From Candidatus Peribacter sp. (lineage in GTDB: Bacteria > Patescibacteriota > Gracilibacteria > Peribacterales > Peribacteraceae), in contig JABIBA010000009.1 of assembly GCA_018652955.1 (NCBI GenBank), positions 124,001-188,000 of the forward strand: a DNA stretch of 64,000 bases, written 5' to 3'. The notes under the pieces are model-generated. The model was not told the DNA's origin and searched no databases. It was given only the letters and a program-made list of their open reading frames with translations. This document shows, one piece after another, positions 10,149-61,206 of the stretch. The translations under genes were made by a program, and so were the position numbers. Every line of letters starts with the position of its first letter. The first letter of the stretch is position 1.

Positions 10149-11414
10149 ATGACTTCTATTAAAAAGATTCACGCGAGGCAAATACTTGATTCTCGGGGAA
10201 ACCCAACGCTCGAAGTAGATATAGAACTCGAAGACGGTACGTTCGGTAGAGCGGCTGTTCCTTCTGGGGCATCCACTGGAACCCATGAAGCTGTTGAGCT
10301 TCGTGATGGAGATAAATCTATGTATGGAGGAAAGTCTGTACTCAAAGCTGTAGGGAATGTTACAGGTCCTATTGCGAGTGCTCTTATTGGGAAAGAGGTT
10401 TCCGACCAACGCACGATCGACCAGATCATGTTGGATCTTGATGGAACACCCAATAAATCCAAGCTTGGTGCTAATGCAATTTTAGGAGTTTCTATGGCTG
10501 TGTGTAGGGCTCGAGCAGGAGTAGAGCACAAGCCTTTGTGGCAATCACTTGCTGATCAATTTGAAGTAAGTAATCCACATCTTCTGCCAATGCCAATGAT
10601 GAATGTGATTAACGGAGGAAAGCACGCAGACTCTGGGTTAAGCTTTCAGGAATGTATGATTATCCCTACAGGACTCTCTTCTTTTACAGAAGCGATTCAA
10701 GCTGGAGCAGAAACATTTCACGCTCTTAAAAAGCTCTTAAAAGATGCAGGTTACACTGTATCAGTAGGAGACGAGGGTGGGTTTGCTCCACAAGTAAAGA
10801 ATGCTGATGAAGCATTTGATTTCTTGATGAAAGCAATCGATGCAGCAGGTTACACTGGCAAGATGCAGATTGGTATCGATGCTGCTGCTTCAGAGTTTTG
10901 TAATGACGGTTCGTATGACCTTGATGGAAAAACTGTCAGTTCAGCAGAGCTCACAGCGTACTACGAGGAACTGTGTAAGAAGTATCCACTCGTCAGTATA
11001 GAAGATAGTCATAGCGAAGATGACTGGGATGGATTTGCAGATCTCACAGCGAAGCTAGGAGACGCAAAGCAGCTTGTTGGTGATGATCTTCTGGTAACGA
11101 ATGTTGAGCGCATACAAAAGGCTATCGACGAAAAGACAGTGAACTCTGTACTCATCAAGCTTAATCAAATCGGAACTGTCTCTGAGACAGTGGATGCTAT
11201 CAAGCTTACACAAGATACTGGTTGGACTGCGGTTGTTTCACATCGTAGTGGAGAAACAGAGGATACGTTTATAGCTCACCTTGCTGTGGGACTAAAGACT
11301 GGTCAGATTAAAACAGGATCACTCTCTCGTACAGATCGAGTCTGTAAATACAACCAGCTTCTACGCATAGAAGAGCAGCTGGGTTCTAAGGCTGAGTTTA
11401 ATTCTCCTTTTTAA
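10149..11414 (+). CDS. eno: Enolase
   Basis: IHARQILDSRGNPTLEVD, VGDEGGFAP, LIKLNQIGTVSET, SHRSGETEDTFIAHLAVG. Confidence 0.98.
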   Translation: MTSIKKIHARQILDSRGNPTLEVDIELEDGTFGRAAVPSGASTGTHEAVELRDGDKSMYGGKSVLKAVGNVTGPIASALIGKEVSDQRTIDQIMLDLDGTPNKSKLGANAILGVSMAVCRARAGVEHKPLWQSLADQFEVSNPHLLPMPMMNVINGGKHADSGLSFQECMIIPTGLSSFTEAIQAGAETFHALKKLLKDAGYTVSVGDEGGFAPQVKNADEAFDFLMKAIDAAGYTGKMQIGIDAAASEFCNDGSYDLDGKTVSSAELTAYYEELCKKYPLVSIEDSHSEDDWDGFADLTAKLGDAKQLVGDDLLVTNVERIQKAIDEKTVNSVLIKLNQIGTVSETVDAIKLTQDTGWTAVVSHRSGETEDTFIAHLAVGLKTGQIKTGSLSRTDRVCKYNQLLRIEEQLGSKAEFNSPF

Positions 11415-16397: not shown

Positions 16398-17753
16398 TTA
16401 CTCAGTAGGTGCAGCAGGTGGTGGTGCTTTATCAAGCATGTCACTCAATTCTTTATGTGCTGTCTCTGATTTTGAATTCGCTTCGGCAAGTGAGATCATA
16501 ACCTTTTTGCTTTGCGGGTCTCTTACACCTTTCATCTTTCCAAGGACGTATGCAGAACCTGAAGGCTTTGGATCTCCAATAAATAGTCGAGCAATCTTAT
16601 CGGGTACTCGCTTGCCCGTAAGGCGTTTACCACTTTTTGATTTAGGATCTGTAAGTTCATGTAGGTTTTCTTCGGTTATCCCTCCACGACCAGAGTAAAA
16701 ATTTAATGTTTTAATAAGGTGGTTTCTCGGACCCGAAGGCAAGTTTAGTAGTTTTTTCATGCCATCTGCACCTACACGTCTAGAGAGATCTGCAAATTGG
16801 CTACTCGCCATAAATTGATTCTTCGGACCACCTTTCATGATGAACATTGCACCACCTGCAAGGAGAAGTGTTGTAAAGGATAGGTTCTTCTTTTGAGTAT
16901 CTCTAATTACCCAGAATGAAAGAAGGGCACCTACTGCAAGTAATGCTGCAAATTTACCAGCTCCTTTTATGGCATTTGGGTCGCGACAGTACCTTTCTAG
17001 GCAGCGCAGATTTTCATCGTCATTTCCATGGTCCGTTACATATTTATGCTCTGCTGCTGGGGTTGTGAGTGTATTTTTTATGTAGGAAAGCTTATCTCTG
17101 TACGCTCGAAAAATTTCCTCTCGTTCTGGGTCTACTTTAGATCCTTCGGCACTAGTGATACGTAGTGGAGAAGTAAGCCATCGAATGTCTGTACCAATAG
17201 CTGCTCTTTCTAGTTCATATGTATCTCCTTGGGGTGTCACGTAGGAAGTTTTATCGGTGTATCTTTTTGTCTTTGCTATTGCTGCGAGATTATCACTTTT
17301 CTCATTTATAATTCTCATTGTTGTTTCGAGTCTTTTTTTTATAGCTTGCATACGTTTCAGTTCATCGGGACCAGAAATGGTAACGAGTTTTCCATCGATA
17401 TAGATTTGAGCATCGGCCCCTTTGCGCATCATGATACTTCCTTTAATTTTTGGAAGGCTACTGAGGCCTGTTGTAGCTCCACGACCAGTGCCAGCTTCTG
17501 TAACACCAAAGGCAATTTTCATCCTGTCTTGCATCTGCGTTCGAGACCTCTTTTCATTTGCAATGTCACCCATGTGTTCAAAATTTCTACAGGCATTTCC
17601 ATGACTCGTAGCATTTCCGGTAGTGTTGTAGTGATCTAAGCTGAGATTTCCACGGGTTGCATGTCGACGAGAACGTGCAGCACGTTCGCCAGCTGGAGGT
17701 GCACTACTAAGCTGTTCCGCACCACGCCGAGGTCTGATAGGTACTCTATTCAT
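16398..17753 (-). CDS. Hypothetical protein with one or two TM segments
   Basis: 451-aa ORF immediately downstream of the multi-TM gene 17766..19493. Confidence 0.75.
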   Translation of the reverse strand: MNRVPIRPRRGAEQLSSAPPAGERAARSRRHATRGNLSLDHYNTTGNATSHGNACRNFEHMGDIANEKRSRTQMQDRMKIAFGVTEAGTGRGATTGLSSLPKIKGSIMMRKGADAQIYIDGKLVTISGPDELKRMQAIKKRLETTMRIINEKSDNLAAIAKTKRYTDKTSYVTPQGDTYELERAAIGTDIRWLTSPLRITSAEGSKVDPEREEIFRAYRDKLSYIKNTLTTPAAEHKYVTDHGNDDENLRCLERYCRDPNAIKGAGKFAALLAVGALLSFWVIRDTQKKNLSFTTLLLAGGAMFIMKGGPKNQFMASSQFADLSRRVGADGMKKLLNLPSGPRNHLIKTLNFYSGRGGITEENLHELTDPKSKSGKRLTGKRVPDKIARLFIGDPKPSGSAYVLGKMKGVRDPQSKKVMISLAEANSKSETAHKELSDMLDKAPPPAAPTE

Positions 17754-33259: not shown

Positions 33260-35746
33260 CTACAGCCTGTCTTTTAGCCCGTTTTGCCAATTCTCGACCA
33301 AATCTTCTAGTTTCTGATCAATTAGTGACGTTTGGCCCTTTGAAATCTTCAAGGATGGGGTACTAGTGGTTTTACCTATCTGAACTGCCTCAATTCCTGC
33401 TTTCTGGGCATTAGACATAACAGAAGAGGCCTTTTGAGCATCTACTTCTACTAGGAACCCGTGAGACTCACTAAAGAGCAGTTTGTCGCTTCCTAGAGGG
33501 CTCTCTATGGCATCTAGATCCATTTCTAGTCCTATAGATCCACCTTGGCGCCTCTGAGGAAGAGTCATCTCAAAAGCGGCGAGAGCTAAGCCTCCTTCGG
33601 AGATATCGTGACACGATTTAATGTCTCCTGTGGCTATAAGATCAAGTACAAGCTGTAACATAGCATTGGTCTTTTTAAACTCTGGTTTTGGTACGTTTGC
33701 TCCTAGGACACTATCTCGGTCGGCTTCAGAAAGCTCTTCTAGCATCTGGTAGTACGCAGATCCTCCACATTCATCAAGACGTTCTCCTATCAGAATAACT
33801 GCTGAATCTGAAGATTTCAGCTGCATGGTAACTGCTTTTCTGGCATCAGGGAGTATTCCTGTACAAGAGACTATTGCCGTAGGGTCGATGGATGATCCAT
33901 CTGGTTGTCCATTGTATAAGGAGACATTCCCAGAGATAACTGGAACAGGTTCGCCATCAAACTGAATAGATTTTCCTGCATCAGCAATTCCCTGTACTCC
34001 AGCCTCAAGTTCTGCGAGTTGCTCAGGGATTTCTGGATTTCCGTAGTTTAAGCAATCGGTCAGAGCTCTTGGTGTTCCTCCAACGGCAACAACGTTACAC
34101 ATCGACTCAACTGTTGCATTTACTCCTTGCCAGTACGGGTCGATGCGTCCGTATCGTCCGTTTCCATCTCCGGCGATTGCTACTCCTCTCCATTTTTCTT
34201 CTTCAGAAAGTTCCCACCCGGGGTGCGTTCCATCGAGTACATAACTTTCTAGATCTTGTAGCGGGGCTATTACACCTGCATCTGCTTCTCCCGCTTCTAT
34301 AATTCCGTTTCCGATAACGTTTTTATCAAAGTGTAAGAAGGCAGGGGATTTAGAGGCATGGTTTGGATGACTGATCATTGCTTCGAACACCGCTTGTATC
34401 TTGTAGGTTGATCCTTGCACGCTTATGGTATCTGCATCACACGTTACTTCGGGTTCAGATCGTTCTTTTACCTGTAAGTCTGTTGGTCTTTTGTATTGAA
34501 TTCCACAGGTGAGTGCCTCTGCAGATGCTTCACACACGACTTCTCCTTTATAGGTACAGGTGTACACACCGTCCGTTGTTACTTTTCCGACAAGGCTAGC
34601 TCTAGCATTTTCCATAACACTTGGCAGATCCCATGTCTCATTAAAGTGCGTGAGGATATGCTCGGTGAGATCTGGATGACAGGTGAAACAAAGCCTCTCC
34701 TGTGTTTCTGCACAGGCGATCACTTCTGCAGGAAGCCCTTGCAGCCCTACATGAACATTATCCAAATTAACCGTAGCACCAAACCCTTGGTCTACCACTT
34801 GTTCGACAGATGCACACACCACTCCACCAGCTCCTAAGTCTTTACAGCTGATCTTATCCAATTTACCTTCTGCCACTAGCCAGTCAAATAGTGCATAGAA
34901 AGAGGCAAGGAGATGCCTTTCTAGGAATGGGTTCGGCTCTTGGACAGCACCAGAGTTTTGCTCGCTCTTTTCTTCTTCCATAGAAGCTGAGGCAAAGGAT
35001 GCTCCTCCGAAACCAGATCTATCGGTTGGTTTTCCTACGAGGATAATGTCGTAGCCAACTTCTCCTGCTTCCTTTGGACAGTAGCTATGAATAATTTCAT
35101 CTTCTCTTACTATTCCGAGTGCGATGGCATTTACGAGACAGTTACTGTTATAGGAACTGTCGAACACCGTATCTCCTCCAAGGTTTGGAACCCCTAAAGG
35201 GTTTCCGTATCCACCAATTCCTCTGATGATTTCTTTAGCGATAGTCTTAGACTCTTTTGTTTCTAAGTCTCCGAGTCGCAACATATCCATACAACCTATT
35301 ACGCGAGCTCCCATACAAACAACATCGCGGACGGTTCCTCCAACTCCTGTAGCGGCACCTTCAAACGGAACGATTTGACTTGGGTGGTTATGGGATTCGT
35401 GTGTCACAACAAATCCCCATCTCTTCCCGTCTTCTCCGTCGGTAATCGCTACGATTCCACTATCTTCAACGGGGCCGAGAATTATATGCTTACCTTCTGT
35501 AACAAAGTTTTTTAAAAACCTGCGAGAAGATTTGTAGCTACAGTGTTCGCTTCCTTGTATTCCCCAGATAACCGCTTCTGTAAGTGTTGGGTCTCTCCCA
35601 AGGAGTTCTACAATCTTCTTTCCTTCATCTACGGTAAGTCCTATTTGATATTCTTTTAAGAGCGCAGAAATTTCGTCGTCACTCGCGGTCGAGAACGGAA
35701 GTGTTTTGATGGTAGGGGATATACTCACGTATAGAGTATGCATCAT
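33260..35746 (-). CDS. purL: Phosphoribosylformylglycinamidine synthase (PurL-type)
   Basis: GSEHCSYKSSRRFL, VTHESHNHPSQIVPFEGAATGVGGTVRD, KDLGAGGV, SCHDISEGGLALA; likely start MMHTLYVSIS at 35746, because the ORF-track N-terminus reads through a terminator-like hairpin. Confidence 0.95.
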   Translation of the reverse strand: MMHTLYVSISPTIKTLPFSTASDDEISALLKEYQIGLTVDEGKKIVELLGRDPTLTEAVIWGIQGSEHCSYKSSRRFLKNFVTEGKHIILGPVEDSGIVAITDGEDGKRWGFVVTHESHNHPSQIVPFEGAATGVGGTVRDVVCMGARVIGCMDMLRLGDLETKESKTIAKEIIRGIGGYGNPLGVPNLGGDTVFDSSYNSNCLVNAIALGIVREDEIIHSYCPKEAGEVGYDIILVGKPTDRSGFGGASFASASMEEEKSEQNSGAVQEPNPFLERHLLASFYALFDWLVAEGKLDKISCKDLGAGGVVCASVEQVVDQGFGATVNLDNVHVGLQGLPAEVIACAETQERLCFTCHPDLTEHILTHFNETWDLPSVMENARASLVGKVTTDGVYTCTYKGEVVCEASAEALTCGIQYKRPTDLQVKERSEPEVTCDADTISVQGSTYKIQAVFEAMISHPNHASKSPAFLHFDKNVIGNGIIEAGEADAGVIAPLQDLESYVLDGTHPGWELSEEEKWRGVAIAGDGNGRYGRIDPYWQGVNATVESMCNVVAVGGTPRALTDCLNYGNPEIPEQLAELEAGVQGIADAGKSIQFDGEPVPVISGNVSLYNGQPDGSSIDPTAIVSCTGILPDARKAVTMQLKSSDSAVILIGERLDECGGSAYYQMLEELSEADRDSVLGANVPKPEFKKTNAMLQLVLDLIATGDIKSCHDISEGGLALAAFEMTLPQRRQGGSIGLEMDLDAIESPLGSDKLLFSESHGFLVEVDAQKASSVMSNAQKAGIEAVQIGKTTSTPSLKISKGQTSLIDQKLEDLVENWQNGLKDRL

Positions 35747-35783: not shown

Positions 35784-35814
35784 AAAAAAGGCGGAGTGGG
35801 AGCCGCACTTTTTT
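35784..35814 (-). terminator. A/T-flanked intrinsic terminator-like hairpin ~38 nt before the purL start (bidirectional)
   Basis: AAAAAAG-GCGG-agtgggag-CCGC-a-CTTTTTT: 11 bp with one bulge; U6 tract on the minus strand. Confidence 0.7.
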
Positions 35815-36041
35815 CATGAGGAGGGACTTGTGCCTGTAATTCCTCATGAGTCGTTAGGTCCACCTAATACGGGAGCAACCCCGCGAAATCTGAACCTGGC
35901 TGCTGAGCTACTCACAGGTGTGAAAGCCCTTGAAACGACAGTACTTTTCCCACTCTGCCTCCTAGAGATACCCTGTGCATCTCTGCACCTGTGCTGCGGG
36001 CAAGCGCAGACAGGATACCTCTCAGCGTAGATCTGAAAGAT
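35784..36041 (-). ncRNA. Unassigned structured RNA / attenuator-like leader upstream of purL (strand uncertain)
   Basis: Pairings in + coordinates: 35789-35801/35948-35960 (13 bp, one wobble on +), 35815-35822/35841-35848 (8 bp), 35850-35855/35934-35939, 35870-35873/35880-35883, 35894-35898/35915-35919, 35972-35976/36010-36014, 35989-35995/36003-36009. No long ORF. Confidence 0.55.
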
Positions 36042-36054
36042 GAGTGTACGTTAG

Positions 36055-59670: not shown

Positions 59671-61206
59671 ATGGTAAATTTGTCTCCTATGAGCGTATTA
59701 GAACGTCTCATTGGCAGTAGTCGATATCAGCAACTTTTGGCGTGGTTTTTTCGCCCTATAGATGGCTCATCTATGGCTCTATTTCGCATGGGATACGGAG
59801 GGATTATGCTTTGGGAGGTAACCCGGTATTTTGACCATAACTGGATCAAATCGTACTACTCAGGCAAAGAATTCTACTTTACGTATCCGGGCTTCTCTTG
59901 GGTCGTTCCGTGGCCATCTTTGGAGCTTATGGAGGCGCACTTTATCCTTATAGGAGTGTTGTCTACGATGGTCTTTTTGGGCCTTTGTTACCGCGTCGCA
60001 GCTGCAGGATTGGCCGTTACCTTTAGTTATGTGTACTTGCTGGAGCAAGCGAGATACTTAAATCACTTCTACTTTGTCATTCTTGTAGCCGTAGCGATGA
60101 TATTTATCCCAGCGAACCGTAGCTGGAGCGCCGATTCTTGGCTTAAAAAGCGGGTTTCGTGGTGGCCATTTCTCAAAAACTGCAGTCCCTACACAGACAA
60201 CTGGGGCCTCTGGGCTATTCGTGCACAGTTCGGAATCACGTATTTCTATGGAGGACTGGCAAAGCTTAACGAGGATTGGCTCCGAGGGTACCCATTATCA
60301 GACTGGATCGCTGATGAAACCGATGTCATCTTTATAGGTCAGTGGGTTGCAGAGCGCTGGATGGGATTATTTTTGAGCTACGCAGGCCTTATTCTTGACC
60401 TTTTGTTCGTACCACTTCTTCTCTATAAGCCAACGCGATGGCTAGGATTTGTACTGGCTCTGGCCTTTAATTTTATGAATGATCAAATGTTCTCTATTGG
60501 GATATTCCCACTGTTCATGGTTATTGGGACATTTACTTTCTTTGAAGCCGATTGGCCTAAGCGGTTCTGGGACTTTTGCACAATAGAAGGTGGAAAACAC
60601 GTTGAGGCATGTGGAAAACGTGCTTCCCTTCTAGCAAGCGAAAAAGCTAAACTGTTGCTTGCCCGCCCGAAGCTCCCAAGGAGCGAAGGAGGGTTCAAAT
60701 TTACAACCAGCCTTCGCTCTTCCAGAGCTACGGACTGGCAGGCAGGACAGAGGCTTCTTGCAGGGTTTATGGTGGTGTTCTTCGCGTATCAATTTCTCTT
60801 TCCGTTTAGACATTTCCTCTATCCAGGCTCAGTGCACTGGACCGAAGAGGGGCATATGTACGCTTGGCATATGAAGCTGCGTAGTAAGAGAGGGCGTACA
60901 GAATTTACTATCAAAGATCCAGACTCCGGTCGTGCTTTTAAGATTGATCCTGACGACTACTTGAATAATAGGCAGGAGCGAAAAATGCGAACACGCCCGA
61001 TGATGATCTTGCAGTTTTCTCATTGGCTAAGAGATAACTACCGAGAGCAGGGGATGAAGAACGTCGAGATCTATGTCGACTCATTCGCATCGCTTAACGG
61101 ACGCGAAGAGCAAAGGCTTGTCGACCCTTCGTATGATCTTGCTCAAATTGAGTGGTCTGTGTGGCCAGCGGAGTGGATTGTTCCGCTTCACACAGAAAGG
61201 AAGTAG
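59671..61206 (+). CDS. HTTM / vitamin-K-dependent gamma-carboxylase-like membrane protein
   Basis: FRPIDGSSMALFRMGYGGIMLWEV, TYPGFSWV, LNHFYFVILVAVAMIFIPANRSWS, IRAQFGITYFYGGLAKLNEDWL; start could be 59689. Confidence 0.85.
   Translation: MVNLSPMSVLERLIGSSRYQQLLAWFFRPIDGSSMALFRMGYGGIMLWEVTRYFDHNWIKSYYSGKEFYFTYPGFSWVVPWPSLELMEAHFILIGVLSTMVFLGLCYRVAAAGLAVTFSYVYLLEQARYLNHFYFVILVAVAMIFIPANRSWSADSWLKKRVSWWPFLKNCSPYTDNWGLWAIRAQFGITYFYGGLAKLNEDWLRGYPLSDWIADETDVIFIGQWVAERWMGLFLSYAGLILDLLFVPLLLYKPTRWLGFVLALAFNFMNDQMFSIGIFPLFMVIGTFTFFEADWPKRFWDFCTIEGGKHVEACGKRASLLASEKAKLLLARPKLPRSEGGFKFTTSLRSSRATDWQAGQRLLAGFMVVFFAYQFLFPFRHFLYPGSVHWTEEGHMYAWHMKLRSKRGRTEFTIKDPDSGRAFKIDPDDYLNNRQERKMRTRPMMILQFSHWLRDNYREQGMKNVEIYVDSFASLNGREEQRLVDPSYDLAQIEWSVWPAEWIVPLHTERK
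60655..60750. repeat. ~95-bp nested palindromic element in frame inside the HTTM gene
   Basis: Left arm TTGCCCGCCCGAAGCTCCcaaGGAGCGAAGGAGGGTT, right arm AACCAGCCTTCGCTCTtccAGAGCTACGGACTGGCAGGCAGG; imperfectly complementary and each contains its own hairpin. Confidence 0.75.

Follow-up and report, generated by a model that had tools for sequence, protein, structure and literature searches.

The gap between nrdA and purL in a Candidatus Peribacter genome (G000) carries on its minus strand a structured element, which is probably an independent, self-terminating non-coding RNA gene of a fast-changing family and not a switch of purL. Its transcript, the existence of which we infer, would start at a 5′ hairpin, P0 (at about position 36039), and fold into a small domain, D1, followed by D2, a branched domain closed by a long helix, P1, which would double as the terminator stem before a run of six U residues (ending at about 35784). 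The purL gene would be transcribed as a leaderless mRNA from a separate promoter immediately downstream. The RNA would belong to a locus 5′ of murJ, usually lying between divergent murJ and purL genes and occurring in several genera, which would evolve quickly in both sequence and size. All positions refer to the window, the whole 64,000-nt stretch of DNA that was analysed.

Structure and Strand of the Proposed RNA

The proposed RNA comprises 256 nt (36039–35784, minus strand) with a minimum free energy of −108.9 kcal/mol, and a homologue was identified with a covariance model in G065 (Candidatus Peribacter sp. UBA6535), a member of the same genus that carries this type of RNA 5′ of purL. The whole nrdA–purL gap of 314 nt folds at −116 kcal/mol on the minus strand (z-score of −5.59, equalled by none of 100 dinucleotide shuffles) and at −101.8 kcal/mol on the plus strand (z-score of −2.28 against the same kind of shuffles). 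In a noisy sliding scan of 200-nt segments the gap ranked among the stronger ones, never at the top. The RNA sequence is present in a single copy in its own genome of 1.2 Mb.

The helices described in this gap by the original prediction are real, and they lie on the minus strand. An independent plus-strand non-coding RNA, offered there as another option, is disfavoured by the fewer pairs and weaker z-score on the plus strand: in the 46-pair core compared between G000 and G065, about eight pair cells are G–U on the minus strand (A–C on the plus strand), versus three cells that are unpaired on the minus strand. The wobble at 35793/35956 does become an A–C mismatch on the minus strand, as had been stated. 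The 4 × 4 AUAC/AUAC internal loop, regarded earlier as a deliberate motif, exists on the plus strand only; the minus strand reads GUAU/GUAU, which is fully pairable and can form two A–U and two G–U pairs. Since the loop is absent in the same-genus relative, it does not represent a conserved motif.

Read from the 5′ end, the layout comprises the hairpin P0, the domain D1, and the domain D2 closed by P1. P0 (36039–36019) pairs CUUUCAG with CUGAGAG and has the counterpart CCCUUCAGC/GUUGAAGGG in G065, while D1 (36018–35964), whose sequence is not kept in G065, is predicted to fold either as AGAGGUAUCCUGU/ACAGGGUAUCUCU or as two hairpins. The 5′ strand of P1 occupies 35960–35948, and its 3′ strand (35801–35789), which ends at the U-run, shows one compensatory change relative to G065. 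Within D2, helix P3 (35939–35850; GUCGUU/AACGAC, identical in G065) encloses the hairpins P4 (35929–35905) and P5 (5′ strand at 35904–35898), followed by the hairpin P6 (35848–35815; CAUGAGGA/UCCUCAUG). A candidate −10 box for the RNA's own promoter, TACACT, was recognised by eye at 36048–36043; it is weak, overlaps the end of nrdA, and has no good −35 element upstream. In G065, TACAGT is found at the matching position, 6 nt ahead of the 5′ hairpin.

No reading frame is conserved between the G000 and G065 RNAs. A short open reading frame considered as a candidate (AGGAGG-N5-GUG in G000, AUG in G065, with LSFQG in common) was rejected: the frames differ and there is no conserved protein, and the shared LSFQG is therefore attributed to the conservation of P3.

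Predicted Termination by a Long-Range Helix

The RNA has an intrinsic terminator of its own, with U6 (35789–35784) placed immediately 3′ of either P1 or a local hairpin. The local hairpin, reported earlier as terminator-like, is present on the minus strand at 35814–35784 (AAAAAAGUGCGG/CCGCCUUUUUU, loop CUCCCACU), and the last 36 nt fold at −10.1 kcal/mol. When 276 non-coding U-runs from 807 kb of the genome were compared, P1 was the best upstream pairing, with a score of 27 followed by 23.5 for the next one, and every control pairing of U-runs with downstream sequence scored below 22; under a looser criterion, long-range helices of at least 9 bp were found at about 9% of non-coding U-runs (52/593). 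The mean pair probability of P1 was 0.91 in G000, 0.99 in G065, and 1.00 in G062, a genome with a comparable helix ahead of purL. Other long-range helices before U-runs in these three genomes were rejected as repeats or apparently weak chance folds.

When the 5′ strand of P1 is withheld, the local hairpin forms at the same U-run in G000, G065, and G062. The two helices are mutually exclusive, yet each ends at the U-run, and therefore both states look terminator-like. The 13-bp pairing of 35789–35801 with 35948–35960, proposed earlier to sequester the terminator, is thus confirmed as a helix, with 12 of 13 pairs on the minus strand, but not in its antiterminator role, since its end coincides with the first U of the run and it is itself terminator-like. 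The 3′-terminal hairpin of the relative G022 is a normal short-loop terminator (CCAGGGAAGUCGG/CCGACUUCCCUGG followed by U5), and in G048, G069, and G070 a helix similar to P1 contains extra hairpins within its loop. P1 is best taken as a terminator stem with an enlarged loop.

The Predicted purL Promoter

The purL gene (35728–33260, minus strand; Pfam domains AIRS, AIRS_C, and FGAR-AT_linker) was assigned a conserved GTG start codon at 35728–35726 by comparison with relatives. Upstream of it and downstream of the RNA lies a −10 promoter box, TGCATACT (35742–35735), which is conserved at purL in the family: 23 of 59 loci have an exact match to TGCATA[AC]T 1–17 nt (mostly 4–11 nt) ahead of a start codon. 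With a weight matrix trained on relatives, G000 and G065 being left out, the purL box, 6 nt from the GTG, ranked at the top of 127,922 window positions. The purL mRNA is accordingly predicted from the promoter motif to be leaderless and to start about 56 nt downstream of U6. Since this promoter is located between the U-run and the start codon, an mRNA originating from it would not include the RNA element.

A near-palindrome, TTGATTCTCAA (35770–35757, minus strand), is located upstream of the purL −10 box and is unchanged in G000, G065, G067, and G068; it could be an operator or a −35 region.

The element had been proposed as a transcription attenuator of purL, that is, a leader in which read-through is set by whether P1 or the local hairpin forms. 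Such a cis-acting attenuator or riboswitch would be consistent with the linkage of the RNA to purL in both G000 and G065 and with the mutual exclusion of the two helices in three genomes, but we consider it unlikely. The conserved purL promoter motif is downstream of the RNA, which places the element, as judged from the sequence, outside the purL transcript; each of the two helices runs up to the U-run, so that either should terminate; the RNA is missing in three congeners and at the majority of the family's purL loci; and the related-slot RNA of G053 and G054 is not close to purL. The RNA probably does not control purL by attenuation.

Occurrence in the Genus

The comparison with relatives suggested along with the attenuator proposal revealed that the RNA structure is kept, with compensatory changes, in one congener, G065. 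Covariance model R1, built from the G065 sequence alone, recovered the window copy at E = 3.7e-11. Both RNAs branch alike, with P1, P2, P3 carrying two hairpins, and P6, and 96.6% of cells in the 46-pair core pair. Nine pairs of the core are changed on both sides, versus 0–2 with the partner strand slid, although only about five of the nine double changes are robust, because five in P6 hinge on a one-base choice of register. Searches with models R1 and R2 over 74 genomes of the family and 291 of the class yielded no clear third member besides G000 and G065; one weak R2 match was obtained in G009 (E = 0.011). Three other genomes of the genus are without the window RNA: nrdA is followed by purL in G066 and G067, and murJ neighbours purL in G068, in each case without the RNA, and in G067 the nrdA–purL junction is almost gapless.

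In the window genome the RNA has as its upstream neighbour nrdA (37764–36055, minus strand; Pfam ribonucleotide reductase large chain). This linkage is missing in G065, where a divergent murJ is the upstream gene; in the window, nrdBA stands between murJ and the RNA. From these arrangements the RNA appears to move independently of its upstream neighbour gene. One could suppose that the RNA is simply an elaborate terminator or 3′-UTR of the nrdBA operon, insulating purL and having no RNA function of its own, given that P0 follows the end of nrdA by 16 nt and that no other terminator is seen from nrdA to U6. This is improbable, as in G065 the homologue is preceded by the divergent murJ alone and not by nrdA, nrdA and purL are nearly gapless in G067 with the element missing, and a branched fold of 256 nt goes far beyond what a terminator requires. 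Since the upstream gene in G065 is divergent, the terminator there would have to serve a transcript begun within the intergenic region.

The position of nrdBA itself varies: it lies between murJ and purL in G000 (39244–36055, minus strand) and adjoins purL in G066 and G067, and murJ directly faces purL or the RNA in G065 and G068. These differences represent gain or loss inside one genus.

The variable presence of the element among close relatives, with an uninterrupted nrdA–purL junction in G067, and the occurrence of other hairpin-ended repeats in the window genome could also point to a mobile or repeated structured element inserted ahead of purL. We regard this as quite improbable, because the window RNA and the RNA of G028, a further genome discussed below, are each present in a single copy, compensatory changes keep the helices, and no ends common to the window RNA and the repeats were found.

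The hairpin-ended repeat of the window genome was observed at four places (L113 3980–4225, L088 1410–1785, L108 at about 16400–16590, and L076 at about 11120–11340); it has conserved ends, CACTTTTC.GATGAAAAGTAACCAAAAATC ... GGTTCGTTTTTGCAT.AAGGCAAAAATGAACAAAGAG, and a variable structured interior. Besides, a strong inverted repeat (60590–60790, plus strand; about −130 kcal/mol for 361 nt) was noticed within an open reading frame of 511 aa (59671–61206), resembling a palindromic element inside a coding sequence.

The murJ Slot in Other Genera of Peribacteraceae

In the usual arrangement of the family, murJ faces away from purL. Screening of 35 U-runs located shortly ahead of purL for long-range closing helices of at least 9 bp revealed such helices in G000, G065, G028 (two), G062, G048, G069, G070, and G038, the last of these loci being repeat-rich; the background rate among all U-runs is about 9%, as given above. 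Strongly structured sequence at the murJ/purL slot was also reflected in z-scores of −6.3 in G028, −7.2 in G022, and −11.6 in G047. The G047 locus (L019, reverse strand, 420 nt ahead of purL) contains five successive strong hairpins which could not be aligned with the other slot RNAs.

The RNAs of G048, G069, and G070 have sequence in common, and through a short pattern and a D2 model of these three, relatives were recognised in G054 and G053. In the latter two genomes, the RNA is located beside a divergent murJ and followed by an open reading frame judged by eye to be DsbA-like, and purL is found elsewhere; therefore, the RNA is an independent gene there. Compensatory changes affect 22 of the 69 pairs in these five RNAs, which represent three genera. 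In G048, G069, G070, and G022, a promoter-like box (TTGACC-N17-CATAAT or similar) ends 6 nt ahead of P0; the boxes are good in G048, G069, and G070, and those of G000 and G065 are weak. The pattern GCCACAAY..GAGGA was also searched, but beyond the purL-linked RNAs its matches were at about the control level, and the three recurring ones that were inspected (L174, L183, and L184) apparently belong to one coding sequence, probably of phosphomannomutase.

Model R3 misses the window RNA and model R2 misses the five-member group; the two are joined by the slot and by the order P0, D1, D2, and U-run, not by sequence. From this common position and layout, the covarying RNAs of the other genera and that of the window could represent one gene. 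Broader still is the proposal that all RNAs of the murJ slot, including the window type and those of G028, G062, G022, and the group of G048, G053, G054, G069, and G070, represent one ancient, independently transcribed, multi-domain non-coding RNA gene, very fast-evolving under structural constraint and with a function that has no known counterpart in other bacteria; we put this forward only tentatively.

Comparison with Known RNAs

The absence of a known-family signature, already suspected from the sequence, agrees with the Rfam search, which assigned no family to the window, to 20 purL loci, or to three RNAs searched permissively. The window RNA had no match even at E ≤ 10, the G054 RNA had none at E ≤ 5, and the G070 RNA gave three chance-level scores alone, all far under their cut-offs. 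A literature search revealed no structured non-coding RNA described for Peribacteria or Patescibacteria.

Orphan standalone structured RNA genes and motifs are known in bacteria from comparative genomics (PMC2864571, PMC6429828). Like these, the Peribacter RNA is intergenic, covarying, multi-helix, and devoid of coding capacity; unlike them, it is restricted to Peribacteraceae, changes fast in sequence and size, and has no Rfam match. With purine-related riboswitches and attenuators (purine, PRPP, ppGpp, ZTP) it shares a structured RNA and a terminator beside a purine gene, but it precedes the promoter of that gene instead of forming part of a leader, matches no Rfam family, and is missing at the majority of purL loci in the family. 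The ends of the window RNA pair together beside a terminator, as in class A RNase P RNA (RF00010); however, the RF00010 match of the window genome is located elsewhere (G000:C3:5855-6217).

A very divergent form of a known house-keeping RNA, such as 6S RNA, is a further alternative. The Rfam 6S model matches nothing in G000 or its genus, which leaves the 6S RNA of the genome unaccounted for, and the window RNA resembles 6S RNA (RF00013) in being standalone, terminated, and of comparable size. Nevertheless, such an identity is very improbable: there is no Rfam match at E ≤ 10, the predicted fold is branched with a separate 5′ hairpin in contrast to the 6S rod with its large central bubble, a different context surrounds the 6S-like match obtained in a second family of this class, and RNase P sits elsewhere in G000. 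The 6S-like match (L117 1501–1656, in G076) scored 40.9 bits against a cut-off of 46.4, and 6S RNA was otherwise undetected among the genomes checked.

For a standalone non-coding RNA of this kind, action in trans would be most likely, as a protein-binding or base-pairing RNA. The location of the element ahead of a purine gene does not imply a purine switch, and this tempting reading is corrected here. The persistence of an RNA gene of 200–330 nt at a single slot, with compensatory changes, in genomes measuring about 1 Mb points to a real function. Few experimental tools are available for this group of bacteria, and the locus offers a defined target, with a start, an end, a promoter, and covarying helices.
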